Shown one piece after another: positions 37,689-62,100 of a stretch of DNA of 64,000 nt. Location of the stretch: NCBI GenBank assembly GCA_031213475.1, contig JARUPZ010000016.1, positions 5,396,699 through 5,460,698 of the forward strand, given 5' to 3'. The number at the start of each line of letters is the position of its first letter. Within the stretch, counting starts at the first letter, position 1. Source of the stretch: Nereocystis luetkeana. Its lineage: Eukaryota > Sar > Phaeophyceae > Laminariales > Laminariaceae. The notes under the pieces were generated by a model. The model did not search any database and was not told the origin of the DNA. It was given only the letters and a program-made list of their open reading frames with translations. The position numbers and the translations under genes are program-made.

Positions 37689-40600
37689 GTAAAATGCTCT
37701 TAGACGAGAAGGAAGCCGACGCAGAAGCTCACGAAGGAGAAAAGGAGGCCCTTTGGAGGCGAATCCAGGTTGGTGGCTTACAGTAGATCTGATATTTCGC
37801 TTTTTACGGCAGTGACGATAACGGCACACTTGAAAGTACTACAGACAGCGCAAAATATTGGTTTTGGGGCTGGGCTAATGAAAAAAAACGCCGTTGAATC
37901 CGTCTCGCATTCTGCGCTCGAAAAAATTGACGTCCGGTACTGCCGACCCCCGGCCATACTTCCCAAGCTTAGTTGCCATAATCCCTCCATGGCACGATGT
38001 GCGCCCGCCTGCTGCTGCTGCTGCTGCTGCCGTTGCGGCCGCCGCCCAACGAAATCCGACCAACCCAAGCCAGATATATATTCAAGATCAAAACCAAAAC
38101 TCGATACAAAGTACTTTACCCAAAACTAAAATATGCCACTATAATATAAAATATATTCTGAAACACACAATCGAAGCGCACCAAACCTAAACCAAAACCA
38201 CAAAAAGCCAAAATCGAACGCCCAAACGTGAAACACGAAACCTTAAACCTCAAAGCTCAGTTCCCAACCCACAAATCATAACCAGGAAATGGCGAGGCGG
38301 GTGATGGAGCTAGAGCAAGACGCGGCGGAAATGCGCGCTATTTCGCACCAATCACATGCTGCCGTCGCCGACGACGACGAGAACGAAAAGGCGTTTCCAG
38401 CAGGCCCAACCGATATACCGGGGCACAAGGAATGGGCTGGGCGCGGGTCTTTCGGGAGCAAGCGTGGGTCTATCGGAAGCGGCAGTGAACGCGCGGAAGA
38501 GAGGGTTCTGAGGGCGAAGAATGAGATGCTTGAGAGGCAGCTGGAACACATGAAGGAGGAGGCGGAGGAGACGGAGCTGGAGTTGGCCGCGGCTAGGAAG
38601 GTGAGAGTCGTTTGATTGGTTTGGTTGGTTTGTTGGTTGGTGGATTAGTTGGTGGATTGGTTGGTTGGTTTTGATGGTTGATTGATCGATTGACACTCTG
38701 CTCGCTGTCATTGGTTGGAGGACTGATTGCTATCGATAGTGTGCTTGCTTGTTTCCCTTGTCGCTCGTCTTCGGTACGCTTTCAGTATGTGAGGCGACGC
38801 ATTTTTTCTTAGAGCCATGGAAAAGGGCCGAGGGTGCCGTAGACGCACAGGGAGCGACGGTACGCAGAAACATAACGCTCGGGGGATCATGAACACTGTA
38901 CTGGTAGGTGTCAAGAGGGGGCGATGACGCTATTCGAAACGAATCCTCCGCGTCCCAGCAAGTCTGAACTGAATTTGTTTTCGCTGCATATCTGTCTGCC
39001 TGTCTTTTTGTTTGTCTGTCTGTCTGCTGTATGGTAGCCTGTATCTATTTGTCTGCCTTTCTATCTTTCTGTCTGCTTGCCGTCATCTCTCTCCATGTAT
39101 GTCTTCCTTTCCCCCTTCCTCCCTCTCTTGGTCACTCTCTATTCGTTTCTGGTTTGCGTACACTCCCGTTTCCGACTCCGTTCGCCTGCGACCAAAAAAC
39201 ATGACCTAAACCCGCAAAGGCGCGTTTCGGAAGGCGGTCCTCCTGCTACGGCCGGCGCAGCACCTCCCGCCCGCCCTCCTCGCGAGCTTCCTCTTCCCGC
39301 ACCGACCGCGTCAGGTGCAGCACCAGCGGCCGCAGCGCCATCAGCCCGTCCCCCTCCACCTCTTCCGCCCTTCACCGCGAGAGCGGAACATTCGGCAGCG
39401 GGGCTTACGTCAGCGGCGGTGCCAGTGTTGACGGTTGCGGCGGCGGTGATGGTGGTGGTGGTGGAGGAGGCGGCGTTGGTGGGGGTGGGGGGGGGGTCGG
39501 GGAAGGAAAAGTATACGGGTCTTACTCATCCCGCCCGGGTGGGGCGGCGCTAGGAAGACGCTCCGTCGCTAGCGGGACGTCGTCCTTGTCCCGGCTGTCG
39601 GGCTGGCTGGCCTCGCCCCGCGTCTCCGCTGAGGGTGTTGACGAGGATGATGACGAAGGCGATGACGTAGATGTTGGTGATGCGGGTTCGGAAGCATCGG
39701 AAGAGGCACTGGTAAGTGCTTGTATATCTGTTTTCCGATGAATTGGATGGGGGGCGGGGGGTGCAATATTGGTATTTGTGTCATTGAGTACGTGATCATG
39801 GGACTAGGTTCGACTCGTGTAGCAGCAGCACCAGCTGCTGTGTGAGTTTGTCCTTTGGTTTATCTGTGTGCCCGCAAGAATTTTTCCCAGACGGTGCAAA
39901 GGCAAAAATCTAAAGGCTTTCTGTCCTATCACCGGGCTTATTACAGCGTCGGTTGTCCTTTCTGGTTCGCCACCGCTGTTCTTGTCATTCCCGTGTACGA
40001 CGTATATCATGGTATCACTACTTGCTCTCCGTAGCACGTGAGAATCGTAATTGTCGTCGAAACCCGCGTGTCCCCGAACAGCCGAGTACCTCCCCGCCTA
40101 CTCGCCTACCCACCCCTCCAGCCCCCCACCCTCCATCCCCCGCCCTCATCCCCACCATTACCCAAACACTTCGGTTTCTATTCTGCTGTACCGAACCCGT
40201 TGTTTTGCTCGCAGCGCAACGCCGACCGTATTCACGCCTCCGGCTGGACCAGGGGCATCGGGGTCGAAAGTGTGGGGGACCTCGCGGAGGAGGGGGAGGT
40301 GGTAGGTGATGAGGGTATTGTCGATGAACATGACTCGGCGTGGCTGTTGGAGCAGAACGCTTGGCTGATGGAGGAGCTGGAGTCGAAAGACGGTGAGTGT
40401 TTGTCACGGTAGGCGCTTGCTGTTGATGGGGGTGGGGACTGGGGCCGGCTTGCCCGGTTGTTGTCTGCGGCCGGGATTGTGGGAGGCGGGTCGAAGGGGT
40501 TGTTGGTGTTAGTGGTGGAGTTGGTATTGGTGGTCATATCGGCGGTGTTGGTGGTGTTGGCATTGTGGTAATGGTGGTAGAAGAGGTGGCGATGGCGGCG

Positions 40601-43600
40601 TTGGTGATAATGTTGATCCTTGTGTTGGTGTTGATGTTTTCGTCGTTTCTCCTGCTGTTGCTGTCGTTGTTGCTGGTGTTGTTGCGGTCGCCAATGTTGT
40701 CATTGTTGACGTTGTTCATGTCGTCGTCATCGTCGTTGTTACGCTGGGTCGCCTGAACAGATGTTGCCTGAGCTTGAATCACGATCGGCTGCAACTCTTA
40801 CCCGCAGCGTCCTTCCTGCCACACTTTGCGGTGGTTCCTTTTTCTGACAACGCCACCCTCGTATGTTGGAGCATCTGGTTCACTCGCAAACTTCAAAGGC
40901 CTTGCACCACTTTGCCATTCTGTGTTTTCAGCAAGTTGGATAGCCTGTCTTGCGACCACGGAGTAGGCTCTTGCGAATATATACTGCGAAAAACAAGCAA
41001 AACGCAGACGGCACCAACAACGACAAGCGCAGGAGCGGGGACGATAACGACGACGACAACTGCAATAGCAAGGACAACTGCAAGGGCGACACGAACAGCA
41101 GCGGAACGACCATAGCAACGACACCCACAACAACAACAACAACAAGGGGCATGACCACAATGACCACGATAGCGACACCCCGACAGCAACGGGGACGATA
41201 ATCACAACGACAGCATCAACAACAACGACAAAAACAATGGGAACGAAAGCGACAACAACGCCAACGGCATGAACAACAAAGGGGAACGACTATCAGAGCG
41301 GCAACACCACAAAAACACTAGCGACAGCAACAACAACGAGGATGACAAAGACAACAACAACGGCAAGAGGAACAACGGAAACCATAACAAGAAGAAGAAC
41401 AACAGCAACGCCAACAACATCAGCAACAGCAACAACCACATCGACGTCGACAGCCTCAACAACACCAGCAATGACAACAACAGAGGAAAGCGTTTAACAA
41501 CGACAGCATCAACAAAGACGACGGCCATGTCAACGACTACGACAAGAACGTGAAACGATAACACCAACGACAACCGGAATGGCGACGAGGACTATTGGCA
41601 ACAATAACGACAGCAGCGAGGACAATACCAACGACGACAACAGTATCAGCAACGGCGATAACAACAACAGCGACAACAGCACCGACAATGACCAGAACAA
41701 CAAAGGGAAAGGCAGCAAGATCACAGGACAACAACGACGACGCAAACGGCAATGACCACGACAAAGACAGCAGCGTGAACGATATCATCAATGGCAACGG
41801 CAGCAACAACTACGGCGACCACGACCAGATAACATCGTAAACAACAATGGGAGCGATAGCTATAACGATGAGCACAGCAGTAACAACAACGCAATTGCAC
41901 CAGCGACACCAATGACAACATCAACGGCAGCGATAACTACTGCTGTATGACCGCAGCAATAACAACAGCGACGACGACAAAACAATGACGGCAACACCAA
42001 CAGCAACGACGATGACGGCTACACAGCAACGGGAACGACACCATCAACAACATCAACGACGACAGTGCCAAGAACAGCGGGAGCAATGGCAATGCCAACA
42101 ACACAACAGCGGCGACGATTACGACAATGACAACAGCGACAAGAACAACGACAGGAACGATAACAAGTATTAATAGTGCGACAGCAGCAACAGCGATAAC
42201 CACAGCGATGACGACAACGACAGTAGCATCAACAACGGCATCACAGCGGTAACGATGGATAACAACCCCAACAACACCACAGCCAAGAACAAGAAAGGCA
42301 AGGATGGAGAGGGTAACAACTTCGACCGTAACAACGACGACGACAAGGATGGCGGCAACGGCAACAACAAGGGCGACATCGTTAACGACGACGACAATAA
42401 AAACGACTATGACAACGGCAACAACAGCGACAATAACAACAACGGGTACGATGACAACAACGACGGCATCATCAACAACAACAACAACAACAACAACAAC
42501 AACGACGGGAATGATGACAACAACGACAACGACGAGGGCAGCATCGGGAGCGATACCAAACAACGCAGCGCCCTGTTCATAATAGCTTTTCCGAATTAGG
42601 AATCTGGAATCTGGAATATTACCGCCCCCCCGTAGGGAGCGAGGTTATTTAAGGCTTCATTTGAACTTTCATGCCAATTCGATACAACATGCACCATAAG
42701 TCTACAACTTCCACAAAAGGTTTTCGTGGGGGAAAAGTCGCGCCTGTGCGATTTTAAAATCGAGATTCCAGATTCCAGATTCGCTTCTGTGAAACGGGCT
42801 TGATAACAACAACAGCAGCCCAACAACAAGAACGACGACGACGGCAAATGTCAACGGCGATGGCAAACAACAGCGACAGGATTGGGATCGATAACAGCAA
42901 AGACGGCCACGAGAACGGCGACACCTACAAGAACAACTGCAGGAGCGACAGCAGCAACGATGACGACAACAACAACAACAACAAATTGGGGACAGCAACG
43001 ACGACGGCAACAAGTAACAACAATCAAAGCAACATTATCACAACAGCTACGACAACGATGACAACAACAACAATAGCTACACCAGAAACGATATCAACAA
43101 CGACAAATAACCAGGGCTTGTTAGGGCTTCTCGCGGGTCATGACCCGACCCGCGGGTCGGGTCACGTGGTGTTCAAAAAGTCACGGGTCGGGTCGGGTCG
43201 GGTCTGGAAGTGTTCAAAACCTCACGGGTCGGGTCGGGTCGGGTCAAGAGGTGATGAAAAACTCACGGGTCGTGTCAGGTCATGAACCGCGAGAAGCGGG
43301 TCACTCGCGGGTCGGGTCAGCATGATCCGCGAGTTGTTTTCTACTGATCCGCGGGTCGGACCCGTGCAGTCGACTTGAGGATCCGACACCTGAATCACTT
43401 CCCGCTCTCTCACAAGAAGGCTTCTCTCGTACCTATACTCAAAAAAACTTTTTGGTATCATGTTCGAACATTAGAACACAGCCAAATTTATTTTCGTGTG
43501 CCCACATCCATTCATACCCACTATAGCAAGGTTATATATCGCTGTGGGGCACTAAAATGAACATGAAACTGTTGTAAGTGCCGGCCCACGGACCAGATCC

Positions 43601-46600
43601 GCGGGTCGAATTTCGGGTCAAGACAAATGGTCTCGCGGGTCAAGGTGATCCGACCCGCATGAAACCCGTGTCTCACGGGTCAATCTGAAGGTGATGGGTC
43701 AGGTCGGGTCGGGTCAGCTGACCCGACCCGACCCGTCCGTGAGGTTTGACCTGACCCGCGAAAAGCCCTGCGAATAACAGCAATACTACAGCGACAACAA
43801 TATCGTAGGCAGCACGACACCGACGACGGCGACAACATCAGCAACAAGAACATCAAATGGAACGACAGCAACATCTACAACAATCTTGTCTTCCCCCGAT
43901 GCTATTGTTTTCAACCCCCGCCGCATCTTCTACGCTTGCGCAAGCCTTCTTGGTGATGGGCACACCCACCACTCATCCATTCCTCCCCCCCGTCCTGTTC
44001 CCCCCGCGCTGTCGGCAGCGCTCATCGAAGCTCTGAGAGAGCAGCTGCAGCAGCACCATCGTCAATCAGAGCAGGGGGGGGCTCGGCATTCGTACCTGGA
44101 GCGGGTGGGTCGTGCTAGCAGTGACGACGATGACGACAACGATGAAGATGGCAGTGATTGTTCCAGCTTCGAGGGTCGCGAGGTTAGACTCGCTGCACTG
44201 TTTACGTGTCACTGGACTGTTTCTGTTGATGTTGCTGCTTATGATATTGTTATTGGTGTTGGTGTTGACAATGGTACTGATGTTATCTTAATTGACATTT
44301 TTGTTGAGATTGATAACGATAGTGGGCATTTACATTTTGTAGTGGTGAGCTGAGCTTGTGACATTGATATTTAACGCATCGTTTTTTGCTTGTGTGTTGA
44401 TATCGTTGTTGCTTGTGAGCCTGGGAGTTTGGTAGCTCGAGATTTTATGAAAAATGTCGAGAGTAACTGTACGGCTGGTGACTTGTGACACGCTCTTCGC
44501 GGGCAATCATTCAATTGTTTGATACATCGATAGTGGCGACACAACAGTCCAAGTTGAGTATCAGCTACTCAATCGGTTGAAGTCACAGCTGAGGTATTGC
44601 AACAATTTTACAAAACAGTCAGCGGCGAGCGGGGTGTCTAGCCTGGCGACATTGAGATCGTTTGTAGTTTCGTGAGAAACAGTGAGCGAGATCTTTTGGT
44701 TGGGTCGATTTCCATCCGACCACAGTTTTTTTTTCTAACGATGAACTCGTCAGCGAGATATTTATGCTGGGTTGGTGATGCGATGAGTAAGGTCGTCCTT
44801 CCTTGACATGAGCGATCGACGTCACCCCCTTGCTCTATTTGCAGCGCTCCTTCTTGGACAATATCCTAGACGGGAACGATGGGCAGACCTCGGGGCAGCT
44901 TTACCGCCGGTACTCGAGCGCCGACACGGTCACCGAAGAAGGAGAAGGAGAGGGAAGAGGAGGAGAGGGAGTTTTCGAGGCCGCCGATTGTGATGCTGAC
45001 CGCGTGAAGTGCCGTGCCCAGAGGGTGCGTTTGATTGTTGTGTTTTTTTTTCGTGAATCTGCTCCCTGTTCATATCTGCCCATACTGCTGTATACTGTAT
45101 ACTATTGGAAACATTATTTACACGTCTTGCTGCTGTCCTGAACATGATGAACCTGCTTCTGTGCCGTGCGTGTCCAGCGGTCGTTCGGGGAGGTCCTGAC
45201 GGTAAACGCCCTGCCAGGCGTGGATAACTCTTCTGAAACGGGCGCCTGGAAGAGGGCAAAGGTGCGCAGTTCTGAAAGAGCGGGCGCGCGTGACCGAAAT
45301 AATCTGTCTATGATGGACTGCCTAATAGTCATGTGAACGGCTGTTGGACCGATCTTCGTTTGGCAGCGTCCCACGCCGTTCCACCCCCCCGGCACATGAA
45401 GCTCTCAGCTGCTGAGACACTGTAGGCCAGGCTGTAGAGCTTGAGCTGTAGGCGGCGCACGTTTTTTTCTCGTTTTCCGCCCGTCGCATTGTCCAGCCTG
45501 TTTTCCACGGGTTACCATATGACGCATTATGCACTTTTTGAGATCGACAGCCTTCTGCCCTTTCCCCTTCTTCACTCCCCTTCCCCCCTCCCTTTCTTTC
45601 CCCCCCTGCCCCTCATCCTTCCTTTTTTTCACGACGCCGTCAGAGCAAGAGCCCCGTAAGGGAGGGTCGCGAGAACTCGCTATCGCCTCTTCGCCCCGAC
45701 GAGGAACAGCAGTCCCCTCGGCAGCAGCGGTCGTCGGTAGAGCTCAATGGGTTGTCAAGGTCGCCAATTGCGCAGGTACGCCGGCTGGAAGATGGGAGGG
45801 CGGCTGGGGTGGGGGTGGGGGTCGAGACAAGCGGTGGAGGTGCCGCCGCCGCTACTACCGCTGTTGCCGCCTCCGCTGCTGCTGCTGCTGCTGCCACTGC
45901 CACCGCAGCTACTGCCGCTAACGCTACCGCTGCGCCGAGGCTGGTCGGAGAAGAAGCGTTGGAAACCCAAGCGGCATCGCTTGAAGAGTCCTTGTTATCG
46001 TCGATAGCGGAGGAGGCCATCCAACAACCCGCTGCTCAACTACCCTCAGCTGCAGCAACGGTGCCCTTAGAACCTGCGTCCGTAGAACCCGCAGGTCTAG
46101 CGCCCGCAGTCCTAGAGCCCGTGACCCAAGTATGCGTAGCTTCTGCACCCGTGACCCTAGCATCCGTATCACCAGCGGTCACATCACCAACAGCTTCGGT
46201 GTCGGCGGCCCCAGTCGCGCCTGGAGCTGCCTCTGGTGCTCTTGCGGTGAAATCGGAGATGAGGGTTGCTGCGGTGATAGAGCCGGAGTTGACTAATGAG
46301 AGGGATGCTGTTATTGGAGCTTATGTCGAGCGGGAGGAGATGGCAGCGGTGGCGGTAGTAGCGGCGGTGTTGGCTGAAGTGGTGGCCGCGGTGGCTGCTG
46401 CTGCGGAGCAGAAGGTCATTGTGGCGGTCGCTGCTAAGCAGGAGGAGGAGGAGATGGCAGCTGCTGCTGTAGCAGCAGTCTCTGCGAAGCGGAAGGAAGA
46501 GGAGACTGTAGCAGTCGCTGCGACGCAGAAAAAAGAGGACGCGTCAGCTGCTGCTGCTGCCGCCGCTGCTGCTGCTACGGCTGCTGCTGTAGCGGCCGCT

Positions 46601-49187
46601 TCGAAGAAGGAGAAAGCGGCTGCTGCTGTAGCGGCCGTTTCGAAGAAGGAGAAAGCGGCTGCTGCTGCAGTAGCAGCCGCAGCGGAGCAGAAGCGGGAAG
46701 AGGCTGCTGCAGATGCTGCGGCGGCGGCCGAACCTCCGGCGGCACCTCAGAATCGAGCGGAGCGGAAGAGCCGCCAGGCGGTGGAGAAGCTGGGGCTGCG
46801 CACCGTGAAAGGGGTGTTCCGCATGACCATGAAGACCTCCAACGGGGTGGTTTTCGTTGTGAAGAGGCCGGACGTTTTCAAGCACCCGCAGCAGGTTTGA
46901 GGACGGAAGGGGGGCGTGGCGAACCTTGCGGTGGCTTATGCGTTGGCGGGCAAGGGGTTGCGTCATAGTTGTTGGTCGCTGCTGCTTTCGTTTGTTTTCG
47001 TCGGTCGTTGATTGCTATTCGTTGTGTTGGTTGCTTTGTTGTATAGTCATTGTGCTGATGTCTTTTCACATTAAGAAGTGTTCGTTGTTATCGCTATCAA
47101 CCCTTTTAGGACCGCAGTCCCGTTTTGGGGACACAGCGGCTGAATCCTAGGCAATTTTCCCTCAAGTCCTGAACGGTTTCATGTTTCGATGTTCGCTGTT
47201 TTGTTCTGTTGGTGTGAGTCGTGATGGTGCGCAGGTGAATAGTAACCGCGAAACCGATTTTTTGAGCCGCGGCCTACCAAAACATTCTAACGTAGCCGAA
47301 AGCTTGCTCGTGTGCGCCGCTCACTTACTCGTGTAACCTTTTTAGAACTGCACCCGCGTTTTTGGGGACAAAGTAATTGAAATTATTAATAGTGTGTGTT
47401 ACTTTTTTCAGTAGTAAAATGGTGCCGCGGGGGGAAACACGTGATCCACGCGTTGCACATCTTATTCGGTTGCTGTTAAGGTGAGGTGATTTTTAGTGTT
47501 GGAATTGTCGGATGGATGGATGGATGAGTGATGTTTTGGCGGGAAACATATCAAGGGCGTGAGCAACATACCACTCTGACCGGTATTATTACAACCGTTT
47601 GGTCTCTGACATAAACATCAAACATATCTTATATTCCCGGCCGGAGTGGTATCGAACGCCTAAGAACATGTCGCGGGTGGATGGCGGTTTTGAGATGGCC
47701 ATTCACCACCCGCACTGGCAACGCTCCGTCGTGGCCAAGTCGCCGCCCCCAGAGTACACGTCCCGTTCGATTATACGCATGACCCGCCGTCCCATGCGTC
47801 TAAACTACTTTACACGACTCAAAATAATAAGGATACTACTACTCGCAGAGATCGCCGACGCCTAAAATCTACCTCAACCGACTGCGGTATATAACGTCCG
47901 AAAAAAAAGAAATCGGGACTGGGGGACTTTTTTGTTCGAACCAAATCTCCCGAAATTATTGTGCTGCACGAGTTTCTTCCTGGTGACAGCTCACACCATC
48001 TTTGCTAACTGCCTCTCTCTTTCCGCGCTCACCCGCCCTCTTGTTCGGTCTCTTCAGGAGACCTACGTCGTGTTTGGAACCTCGGAGACCGACCGTTCGG
48101 GCAGCGAAGTTCGCGTCCCCTGTTCGGGGGCGCAGACCGCTTCGGCAGCGGCCACCGGCGTCCAGCGGAAGGTGGTCAAAGTAAATATATAATTTTTCCC
48201 CTCAGTTATGGTGCGGTTGCCGAGGCGATGTATACATACCGGAGAGAGGGGAGGAGTGCCCGCTATGTCCCGGATCTGATGTTCGGAAGGAAGGGAGGGG
48301 GCTGGAGAAGTAACGCAAATGTAATAATGTAGATGGGGCGGACAACATATGTAGTGAGAGATACGTTGAGAGAGGGACAAAGAGCGCAGTGGTACCACCC
48401 GCCACCTGGATCGTAGAGAAACGTCGGTACAGCGTACCACTGTTGTGGTCTGGAATGTAAATGCCCGTTTGGGCGCTGCTGGGAACATCAAACGGAGCTT
48501 ATATTCCCGGCCAGAGGGGTACTTCGTATAATATCATATTAATATACCAGTCGTAATTACTAAATATTGTAGGTTTATGTTGCCGCCAAGTCTTTGACAC
48601 ACTGGCTGCATTTGATGGGGTCTTAAAAACCCGGTTCCTTGCTACGCGGTGCGACCGTCCCGCCACGTTGTCCGCGGGTCAACCGCCGAGACACACCTTG
48701 TGTTAGCACCTCTACCCTCCCCACACGTGGGTGCAGCCCCCCCTCCCCCCCCGCCAGGATACACTAGCAAGGCTTTCAGGATGGCCAAGCTTACTCGTCC
48801 GCGTAATGTCCATCTTGAGGCTCTCCGGGTCGCAAAGCTCACGCGTCCACGTCTTGTCCGGCCCTTGTCTTTTTGTGTCTGCTTCGTCGCTGTGAACTGC
48901 AGGGCACCGGTATGGAAATTCTAGCGCCAACTCCAGCGTCAACGGCAACAGCTGCGCCAATATTGTCCTTGACGGCGCCGGCCTCTTCGGCAGCGGGAGG
49001 GAGCCCGAGTCGGTCGCGGCCAGACCCTTCGGGGGTGGAGATCAAGTCGGTGGCGGCGGGTGTCGATCCGGCAGACACCCTGACCATCCTCTCCCACGCC
49101 GGTTGCTCCACCGAGGTCGCCATCGCGGCCCTGCGTCGGGCGGATGGGGACGTTGTAGACGCCGCCATGAGCCTCACCGCCGTCTGA
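37689..49187 (+). CDS. NACA: Extended NAC-alpha-like protein with coiled coil and C-terminal UBA domain
   Basis: Ten phase-consistent exons: 37689-37768, 38286-38600, 39220-39711, 40215-40392, 44019-44182, 44845-45024, 45178-45261, 45644-46894, 48058-48180 and 48903-49187 (about 1,050 residues). In order: coiled coil (EALWRRIQEMARRVMELEQD; LLEQNAWLMEELESKD; LIEALREQLQQHH), Ser/Gly-rich and acidic linkers, a long Ala/Val/Glu/Lys repeat region, then the NAC-alpha signature ERKSRQAVEKLGLRTVKGVF with VVFVVKRPDVFK, continued by ETYVVFG in the next exon. The rest of the NAC beta-barrel is poorly conserved. The last 40 residues are a UBA domain (DPADTLTILSHAGCSTEVAI, then DGDVVDAAMSL). The Ala-rich part and the NAC motif share one uninterrupted exon, so the extension is not an annotation merge at that point. 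Ordinary NAC-alpha is about 200 residues and binds nascent chains at the ribosome. Confidence 0.8.
42593..42790. mobile_element. Foldback element with GGAATCTGGAATCTGGAAT termini
   Basis: The left end TAGGAATCTGGAATCTGGAA mirrors the right end GATTCCAGATTCCAGATTCG about 190 bp away. The interior is unlike the surrounding AC-rich repeat, marking an insertion. Confidence 0.7.
43126..43770. mobile_element. TIR element rich in CGGGT repeats
   Basis: The left end AGGGCTTCTCGCGGGTCATG is mirrored by the right end GACCCGCGAAAAGCCCT. Subterminal arrays of CGGGTCGGGT lie at 43150-43330 and, inverted, at 43600-43750, around a unique AT-rich core with no coding frame. It is inserted in the AC-rich intron. 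Confidence 0.7.
47098..47400. mobile_element. Degenerate family C MITE fragments
   Basis: AACCCTTTTAGGACCGCAGT then CCCGTTTTGGGGACA at 47098, and CCTTTTTAGAACTGCACCCG then TTTTTGGGGACAAAG at 47338. Both are left-end matches to family C with eroded right ends. NAC gene intron. Confidence 0.55.
47567..47658. mobile_element. MITE, family B-related
   Basis: CATACCACTCTGACCGG on the left and CCGGCCGGAGTGGTATCG on the right form inverted termini. The copy at about 48436-48525 shares TTATATTCCCGGCC and similar ends. NAC gene intron. Confidence 0.6.
48432..48527. mobile_element. MITE, family B-related (second intronic copy)
   Basis: GCGTACCACTGTTGTGGTCT on the left; GGAGCTTATATTCCCGGCCA and GAGGGGTACTTCG on the right. 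The interior CATCAAA...TTATATTCCCGGCC matches 47567-47658. Confidence 0.55.
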
Positions 49188-59102: not shown

Positions 59103-62100
59103 TCACTTGGATCGTTTGTAGATCTTGTCGATGAACTGGTGGAATACCTGGAGGGGGGCAGGGAGAGGGGGAGGGAGGGAGGGAGGGAGGGAGGGAGGGA
59201 GAGAGGGAAGGGTTGAACGAGGAACGAAGAGAAGGGGGGTATAGAAGCACGCAGTGCAAACAGACGTACCGCACGAACGAACGAACGGACGGACGGACGG
59301 ACGCATCCATGCAAAACACAGAAATATGGAGGGTTTTGAGGCTTTTTTAACCCTTCTAGCACTGCAGTCTCATTTTGGGGACAATCTACTCAAATTTAAA
59401 GTCGTTTTTCCCCAAATCGGTACTGCAGTTCTAAAAGGGTTCAGGAGGGGCGGGGGGGGGACAAGAACAAAAGGCAGAAAAACGAAAACATAGCGGTACT
59501 CGTGTGTAAGATATTATATATATACGTATATATACATTCCGAAAGTTTGTACATGTTCATGTTATGTGATACCCGCTACAAGAGAATGGCCGAGAAAGTA
59601 CGGCGAACGGAAAATATGAATATGATACCTTAACCTGGTACCATATCGATTTGGGTTGGGGGAAACAAACGGTGAACCAAAAAGGTGGAGACAAAAAAAA
59701 AAATACTGGAGAAATAGGTGAGGAAACAAAAAAACGAAAAACACCGGTAGAACGCGGCATACACACGGGGGGGGGGAGGGATGACGAGAAAAGCAAAGAA
59801 ACCACCAGTCCAAGAAAACAAAAGCAACCATCCACTGCAAGCACGGACAGATATTAACATATATATTAATATTATTAGTAGAAAAACTCACCGCGTGGGG
59901 GATGTCGTCGACCTTGGCGATGAGCTCCTTGATCTGCGAGTGCGTCTCCTCCTCGTACTTCGCGTACACATCCTCAAGCTCCAGCTCGCGGTACAGCTCC
60001 TTCACGCGCTCGATCTGCTCCACACCATGGTTGCGATAGAGTTTCCGGTAGGGGTTCGGTTAGGGTGGGGTTGGGAGGTGGGGTGGCATTGAGGTGGGGC
60101 TCGGGGAGGGTTGGGAGCACATGCAAAAAATAGATCCCAAGACACACTTAAGAGATACCTGTAACTTTTAACATAACCCCCCGCCGCCTAAAACAAAACA
60201 ACAAAAACACACAGCACGATAACAAAACGAACAATACAAAAAAACAAAATCAAGCTGACCTTTGCCTCCTCATCGATGGCGTAGTTCTGGACGAGCACTT
60301 CCTTCTGCTCCTTGGTCGCCCTCTGCAGCGCCTGCACGACGAGCCAGCTGCACTTGTTGTCCTGGATGTCGGTGCCCACCTGCGTCCCGGGGCGAGAGAG
60401 AGAGGGGCACGATCCCCACCCAGGAGAGGCACGACCCAAAGAAACGACGTGGTCGAAAAAATAAACACCATCAACAACAGCAACGATAGCCACAGCAGCA
60501 GCAACGACAACAACAGCAGCAACGACAAAACCAACCACAACAATAGCATTAGCAACAGCAGAAGCAACAGCAGCATCAGCAGCAGCTATAACAACCGCCA
60601 TAACAGCAAAAATGACAGCGACCACGGCAACATAACCACCCGCAGCAACTACAAGAAATACCACAACACCAGCAGCAGCAGCAGCAGTAGCAACAACACC
60701 AACAACACCAGCAAGACCAACATCATCACCAGCAACACCAACATCATCACCACCACTACCACCACCACCACCGCAACCACCACCAACATCATGTTTCCTT
60801 CACTCGCCTTTTCACTTCCTTCCTCGCTCATTTCTTCACTATGTTCACTTTCACTCACTCCTTCGCTTTTTTCGCTCACTCCTTCTGTTTTTCTTTCAAC
60901 TCGCACCTTCCCGATGACCTTCGGGTCGCCGAAGCAGTCGAGGAAGTCATCCTGGATCTGGAAGAACTCCCCTATCCGGCAGCAGATGTCGCGGGCGAGT
61001 CTGTAGCTGGCGGGGTCCTTCACCCCCGCGTAGATCATTCCGATGGCGCAGGGAAGGTAGAAGGTGTAGTAGGCCGTCTTGTAGCGCACGATCATGCGGT
61101 ACCGAGTCGGTGTGAACCTGCTCCAGCCCAAAACGCGCCAAAAAACGAAACAAAAGTAGAGAGCCATTGTAAAAAACAAGAAAGTAAATAAAAAGAAAAG
61201 AAAACACAAAACACAAAACAAACACCGCAAGACTGCCAAAAGACTAGACCAAGCCGCACCTCAACTTTTTCATACACACGTGTTGCTGATCCTGCATAAT
61301 TTTGACTGTTTCGCGCCAAGCTATATACGAGCTGCAGCAGTGGTCAGTCTACACCGTTACCGTACCGGTACCCAGCGGGGGTCGCGGCTAAGGATAGGTG
61401 CGACTTATCTTGACCCTTCTAGTGCGCCACCTGAATAGGCTTCTATCTCCAAGTAATTTTCCCCACCATGGGAGTGCAGCCTTGAAGGGATTACACCCGA
61501 ACTTCTCTTGAACCGGCATGGGTATTATATACTGGTACTAACTGGTAGATCAGCTTTTAGTATGCCCGCGCCAAGCCATTTAATTTTAGCCTCTCTTAAC
61601 CCTTTCAAGACTGCAGTTCCGTTTTGGGGACAAACTACTTAGACTTTGAGTGGGTTGTCCCCAAAACGGGACTGCAGCTCCGAAAGGGTTACGCCAAAAC
61701 TTATCTAAAACCGATACCAGGTACCGGTAGGTATTAACCCTAACCGGTTCTGGATGATACAGTGGGGTGTTCATTGTAAGACCACCCCGTGAAAAACCAA
61801 ATAGAAACGGCTTACCTCTCTGCTAATGTAGCCTTATATTCCACTACTGATCATACACGCACGTACATATTCCAAGAAGTTGTTCTCTTTTGACTTGAGC
61901 CGATCTACTTGGTCTTATCTCCCGAAACGTCTTTAAAAACTAACAGATGCTCTTAAAGTGGGTACCCAGCCCACTGCTAAAGCGGGGACCCCAATGTACA
62001 CTTCTCGCCTTGTGAGGTCGGAAGGAGCGTCCATCGGCTGAGACGTGAGGTCGAGCAGCTGGCCCATCTCGGTGCGGTAGGTCACGTCGTGGAACAGCTC

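Follow-up and report, generated by a model that had tools for sequence, protein, structure and literature searches.

A predicted long and diverged NAC-alpha paralogue in the genome of the kelp Nereocystis luetkeana

A ten-exon gene model and its coding support

The window, by which we mean the whole 64-kb stretch of DNA that was analysed, carries a predicted gene of ten exons on its forward strand (37694-49187). Joined together, these exons make 3,147 nt and encode 1,048 amino acids with no internal stop. All nine introns are bounded by GT-AG and the frame is kept at every join, which agrees with the original prediction of ten phase-compatible exons encoding more than 1,000 residues. GC content is 0.43-0.56 in the introns and 0.55-0.69 in the exons. 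The features of the predicted gene, with the evidence for each, are as follows:

37694..37768, + strand: exon 1, a possible first exon; open frame, weak donor (CAG/GTTGGT), weak coding score
38286..38600, + strand: exon 2; open frame and coding score; alternative start ATG at 38289
39220..39711, + strand: exon 3; open frame; Gly/Ser-rich; other frames score higher
40215..40392, + strand: exon 4; open frame and coding score; acidic
44019..44182, + strand: exon 5; open frame; coiled-coil-like by eye (ALIEALREQLQQ), with an acidic tract; other frames score higher
44845..45024, + strand: exon 6; open frame
45178..45261, + strand: exon 7; open frame
45644..46894, + strand: exon 8; a single frame takes in a Ser/Arg-rich start, an Ala-rich part, a basic helix and the opening part of the NAC domain
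45866..46759, + strand: Ala-rich segment with Val/Glu, amino acids 571-868, 39% Ala, by composition
46751, + strand: candidate phase-0 acceptor (cctcag/AATCGAGC), of which this would be the first exonic base, just 5' of the NAC motif
46760..46894, + strand: first part of the NAC domain, Pfam positions 1-45
48058..48180, + strand: exon 9; NAC domain completed (48058-48090), followed by a changed linker
48903..49187, + strand: exon 10 with the stop codon; remaining linker and UBA
49062..49178, + strand: putative UBA (UBA_HYPK-like), scoring below the Pfam cut-off

Exon 8 is exactly 1,251 nt long and stop-free, with 27 and 6 stops in its other two forward frames, and the 452 codons around it form the longest open frame of the window in any of the six frames (the next has 284). 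The Ala-rich repeat and the NAC motif had been claimed to lie together in this one exon, and they do so in the same frame. When exon 8 is read unspliced, a stop follows one codon past CAG (GTT TGA); the exon 8/exon 9 splice is well supported, because the NAC domain carries on into exon 9.

Each exon was then given a codon-position score, trained on 365 codons from the canonical NAC-alpha of the same genome (described below) and from parts of NAC-beta, polyprenyl synthase and an ankyrin exon, and was compared with a background of 1,000 windows for which the best of six frames was taken. The model frame was the best of six in seven of the ten exons (1, 2, 4, 6, 7, 8 and 9). It was outscored by one forward and two reverse frames in exon 3, by a forward and a reverse frame in exon 5, and by one reverse frame in exon 10 (0.135 vs 0.074). 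The share of background windows scoring as well was 0.146, 0.012, 0.085, 0.015 and 0.159 for exons 1 to 5, and 0.120, 0.099, 0.000, 0.048 and 0.044 for exons 6 to 10. We regard exons 8 to 10 as firm, exon 10 chiefly through its homology, and exons 2 and 4 as fairly supported; for the remaining N-terminal exons, splice sites and an open frame make up most of the basis. Because the donor of exon 1 is weak and 14.6% of background windows match its score, the start codon is uncertain and may be at 37694 or, in exon 2, at 38289.

Intron 4 (40393-44018) is 3.6 kb long and contains a long ACN/AAC-rich low-complexity stretch, a CGGGTC-type repeat in three copies 41 nt apart (43153-43281) with a diverged fourth at 43673-43715, and inverted arms at 43283-43351 and 43614-43682 that are 71% complementary.

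The NAC and UBA domains and their counterparts in the genome

A Pfam search on the C-terminal 208 residues of the paralogue matched the NAC domain (PF01849) with E 7.1e-18 and 64.7 bits, against a cut-off of 21.3, over profile positions 1-56 of 57 and across the exon 8/exon 9 splice. In a PDB search the best NAC-alpha chain gave E 4.8e-20 and the best BTF3 (NAC-beta) chain only E 0.084; a NAC-beta identity is thereby ruled out and the domain is, judged by its sequence, of the alpha type. The UBA gave a weaker match to UBA_HYPK (E 2.9e-4, 20.6 bits), below the 27-bit Pfam cut-off. It aligns with the UBA of the PDB NAC-alpha chains, at an i-Evalue of 5.2-6 when taken alone, and a single-sequence model of exon 10 placed three short helices at its site with low confidence (mean pLDDT 51.2). 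The last three exons encode a NAC-alpha-like motif, as claimed, and a putative UBA with a weak score.

The genome, of 465 Mb in 1,987 contigs, was searched for further members of both families. PF01849 gave four scored candidates, and three of them had E values of 0.001 or less: contig C2 with a full domain (80.6 bits), contig C19 with part of one (46.7 bits) and the paralogue itself (45.8 bits, exon 8 part only). The match on C2 is the canonical NAC-alpha, an intact gene of five exons and 200 amino acids (G000:C2:12573736-12578246, - strand), with 77.3 bits for its NAC domain and 41.1 bits for its UBA. A second, short NAC-alpha gene, for which the original prediction had suggested searching, is therefore present, and its separate place in the genome bears out the reading of the long gene as an extended paralogue, with 1,048 amino acids in the gene model against about 200 residues in a usual NAC-alpha, which is a ribosome-bound helper protein. 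Since the canonical gene lies on another contig, an isoform of the skNAC type is ruled out and the long gene is a diverged paralogue. The exon on C19 belongs to NAC-beta, as its six PDB matches are all to BTF3, with E 9.8e-12 for the best, and is the only NAC-beta found; a further NAC gene, split or diverged, may lie elsewhere in the genome.

Nine places were scored for UBA_HYPK, and five of them had an E of 1 or less. An exon on contig C13 ranked first, followed by the canonical NAC-alpha, the paralogue in third place and two weaker matches. The C13 exon (L006 1501-1623; G000:C13:6463901-6464023) is a separate locus that reaches 46.0 bits on its own, and with HypK at 0.0033 and an uncharacterised chain at 0.0036 as its best PDB matches it looks like the HYPK of the same genome. 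It shares the UBA_HYPK family with the paralogue and is known from its UBA exon alone.

A search with the NAC-UBA part gave eight genome matches at E up to 1, three in the paralogue, one in the canonical gene and four at E 0.015-0.879 with stops inside, so that no near copy was found besides the canonical gene. Amino acids 1-197 likewise had no near copy, the three genome hits within E 0.01 all being the paralogue itself. With these two queries, a recent duplicate or second haplotype copy was looked for and none was found.

We compared the domains with the canonical copy and with a PDB NAC-alpha chain, which we take to be human. Over 61 core positions, the PDB chain and the canonical copy are identical at 42, the PDB chain and the paralogue at 29, and the canonical copy and the paralogue at 28; over 41 UBA positions, the corresponding numbers are 31, 15 and 19. 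The core of the paralogue is, by sequence identity, about equally distant from the canonical copy of its own genome and from human. As a gauge of the duplication's age, positions common to the paralogue and the canonical copy, and not to the PDB chain, number four in the core and five in the UBA, and those common to the paralogue and the PDB chain, and not to the canonical copy, number five and one; these counts point to no particular age.

The original prediction had set a poorly conserved second half of the NAC barrel against a UBA that is kept. This contrast failed, as the NAC profile is matched over positions 1-56 of 57 and the UBA falls below its cut-off; on alignment, the UBA appears at least as diverged as the NAC core. 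What stands is a divergence of the second half of the barrel, which is not missing: of 18 core positions where the canonical and PDB NAC-alpha agree and the paralogue differs, 13 lie there, and five of these are the final EAKIE. This altered EAKIE at the barrel end could also harm pairing with NAC-beta. The basic helix ahead of the barrel is mostly kept in the paralogue.

The two genes also differ in their introns. The barrel is interrupted by an intron in the paralogue and by none in the canonical gene, whereas the UBA is split by an intron in the canonical gene and not in the paralogue. These differences, together with the roughly equal distance, suggest that the duplication is old or that the copy evolves fast; retroposition with intron loss, followed by a later gain, is also possible. 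The paralogue may have evolved independently and may have an altered role, as the original prediction proposed.

The linker and the N-terminal extension

In human NAC-alpha, the contact helix at the joint of barrel and UBA lies on Naa15 of NatA, and the UBA can contact Naa15 or SRP54 (PMC11372111). We equate the stretch after the barrel (EAKIED...) with this helix, and its status as a defining feature is our judgement. Taken as a NAC-alpha feature, the segment is not kept in the paralogue: the linker stretch reads EAKIEDLSAQAQQQAQQQAAERF in the canonical protein and TSETDRSGSEVRVPCSGAQ in the paralogue, where EAKIE has become TSETD and EAKIEDLS is changed. Pro and Gly account for 16 of 86 linker residues in the paralogue against 3 of 57 in the canonical protein, and Ser and Thr for 23 of 86 against 7 of 57. 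A linker rich in Ser, Thr, Pro and Gly seems to take the place of the contact helix, and NatA docking should be weakened as a result. In both genes a single phase-0 intron interrupts the linker, following the VFG motif at a distance of 34 and 27 residues; because the two linkers do not align, these introns could be one and the same.

In the predicted gene model, the frame stays open for about 870 residues ahead of the NAC domain. Its composition changes along its length, where amino acids 1-130 (exons 1 and 2) are Glu-rich, coiled-coil-like by eye and of net charge -12, amino acids 131-294 are Gly/Ser-rich, amino acids 295-408 are acidic (net charge -21) and amino acids 571-868 are the Ala-rich segment. 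The Ala/Lys/Glu part of exon 8 includes an in-frame 39-nt tandem repeat (46578-46667) of 2.3 copies with 98% matches. Pfam gave nothing above its cut-off in amino acids 1-562 (the best was Csm1_N, E 0.016, at 338-372), and the PDB search of amino acids 1-547 gave only two chains, with E 0.009, both over the Gly-rich stretch. The extension would likely serve in recruitment or localisation.

Proposed role, other readings and known long NAC subunits

With confidence slightly better than even, we propose that the gene encodes a separate, diverged and lengthened NAC-alpha paralogue that would pair with the shared NAC-beta and dock less well on NatA. NAC is anchored on the ribosome by the N-terminal helix of NAC-beta (PMC12858966). 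The paralogue would use its NAC barrel to pair with the single NAC-beta found, the bearer of this anchor, and some NAC dimers would thus bring the long subunit to the tunnel exit. Its UBA may still reach a partner there, such as SRP54 or Naa15, and NatA docking would be weakened through loss of the contact helix. The coiled-coil-like, acidic and Ala-rich extension might bring other factors or nascent chains to such ribosomes or, alternatively, place the subunit elsewhere in the cell. An extended form of this proposal, which we consider speculative and of low probability, is that of an old specialised NAC whose alpha subunit would have lost the contact helix and acquired the extension of 870 residues, with one NAC-beta split between two tunnel-exit complexes, of which just one would serve N-terminal acetylation.

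A somewhat unlikely alternative is that the model joins two transcription units, a coiled-coil gene of exons 1 to 7 and a NAC-alpha-like gene whose start lies in or close to exon 8, or that an alternative start or splicing at 46751 gives a short isoform. The frame tests the joins weakly, because all but one are phase 0 (exon 4/exon 5 is phase 1, the remaining eight phase 0). The candidate acceptor at 46751, also phase 0, has a pyrimidine content of 0.60, compared with 0.45-0.85 at the 13 sites used in the two NAC-alpha genes. In the alignment, six residues separate it from the intron that precedes the NAC motif in the canonical gene, and it would permit a shorter isoform; an alternative start would find five in-frame Met codons in exon 8 (amino acids 702, 729, 767, 890 and 892). 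When exon 8 was scored in 150-nt sub-windows (45644-46843), three of the first four fell below zero in the NAC frame, with three of all eight negative and 46094-46243 better in another frame; however, the NAC frame was the best of the three forward frames in seven of the eight, the Ala-rich interval 46244-46543 scored 0.41-0.43 in it and -0.46 to -1.03 in the remaining two, and the 452 codons without a stop also argue for one unit.

We consider it unlikely that the protein is a moonlighting NAC-alpha with a role away from the ribosome, such as a nuclear one of the kind reported for skNAC in transcription. The long extra region on NAC-alpha recalls skNAC, which has been called a transcription factor (PMC10340688), but no such domain scored above the Pfam cut-off and none appeared in the PDB search of amino acids 1-547. 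It is improbable that the gene is a NAC-alpha duplicate in decay, with little or no constraint upon it, since for all the 46% identity of both domains to the canonical copy, the UBA below cut-off and the changed EAKIEDLS, its 1,048 codons hold no stop or frameshift, nine of nine introns are GT-AG, and a neutral copy so diverged would be expected to have gathered stops.

Very long NAC subunits are already known. Human NACAD, which we take to be a long protein with a C-terminal NAC-alpha domain encoded by a separate gene, presumably resembles the paralogue in this respect. In the same kelp genome, the canonical NAC-alpha has the NAC domain and UBA in common with the paralogue (28/61 core and 19/41 UBA positions identical), but differs in its 200 amino acids, its five exons, the presence of the contact-helix stretch and a barrel contained in one exon.

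Drosophila germline NAC-alpha (gNAC-alpha), like the paralogue, has its own gene beside the ubiquitous NAC-alpha and combines NAC and UBA with a longer N-terminus, the disordered part of which is about three-fold longer (PMC9249742). A layout of this kind (separate gene, C-terminal NAC and UBA, long N-terminus) fits the kelp paralogue, with a weak UBA and an extension taken from the gene model. Unlike gNAC-alpha, the paralogue has an Ala-rich extension of about 870 residues, a NAC domain far more diverged from the canonical one, and a changed UBA and linker; melanogaster-group flies also have amplified gNAC-beta genes (PMC9249742), whereas only one NAC-beta was found in the kelp genome. Drosophila uncNAC-beta is likewise a NAC-domain subunit with about 800 extra residues, which are disordered (PMC9249742), but it is a beta subunit and these residues follow the NAC domain rather than precede it. 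Vertebrate skNAC carries a large region ahead of NAC and UBA, and is a splice variant of alpha-NAC with 23 + 192 residues common to both (PMC10340688), whereas the paralogue has a gene of its own and a diverged NAC domain.

Judged by titles and abstract openings, no paper that the literature searches listed had a long NAC-alpha paralogue in an alga. What sets this example apart, as read from the sequence, would be an alpha subunit with a long Ala-rich N-terminal extension, a strongly diverged NAC domain and UBA, and a changed contact-helix stretch. If the proposed lengthened paralogue is real, nature would have separated the functions of NAC-alpha in a case outside flies and vertebrates, one in which the canonical gene is kept and the contact-helix stretch is changed; dimer formation, contacts of the UBA and docking on NatA could then each be assayed on their own.

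Relatives were also sought in viral_contigs, where 19 stretches fit a pattern and none was confirmed. Within the 64-kb window, Rfam at its gathering threshold and the tRNA search gave no hits. Two further exons lie on the reverse strand of the window: an ankyrin-repeat exon at 2285-2860 (Pfam Ank, 3.7e-8) and a polyprenyl synthase exon at 60652-61260 (PF00348, 1.4e-20), the latter a farnesyl diphosphate synthase by eye.
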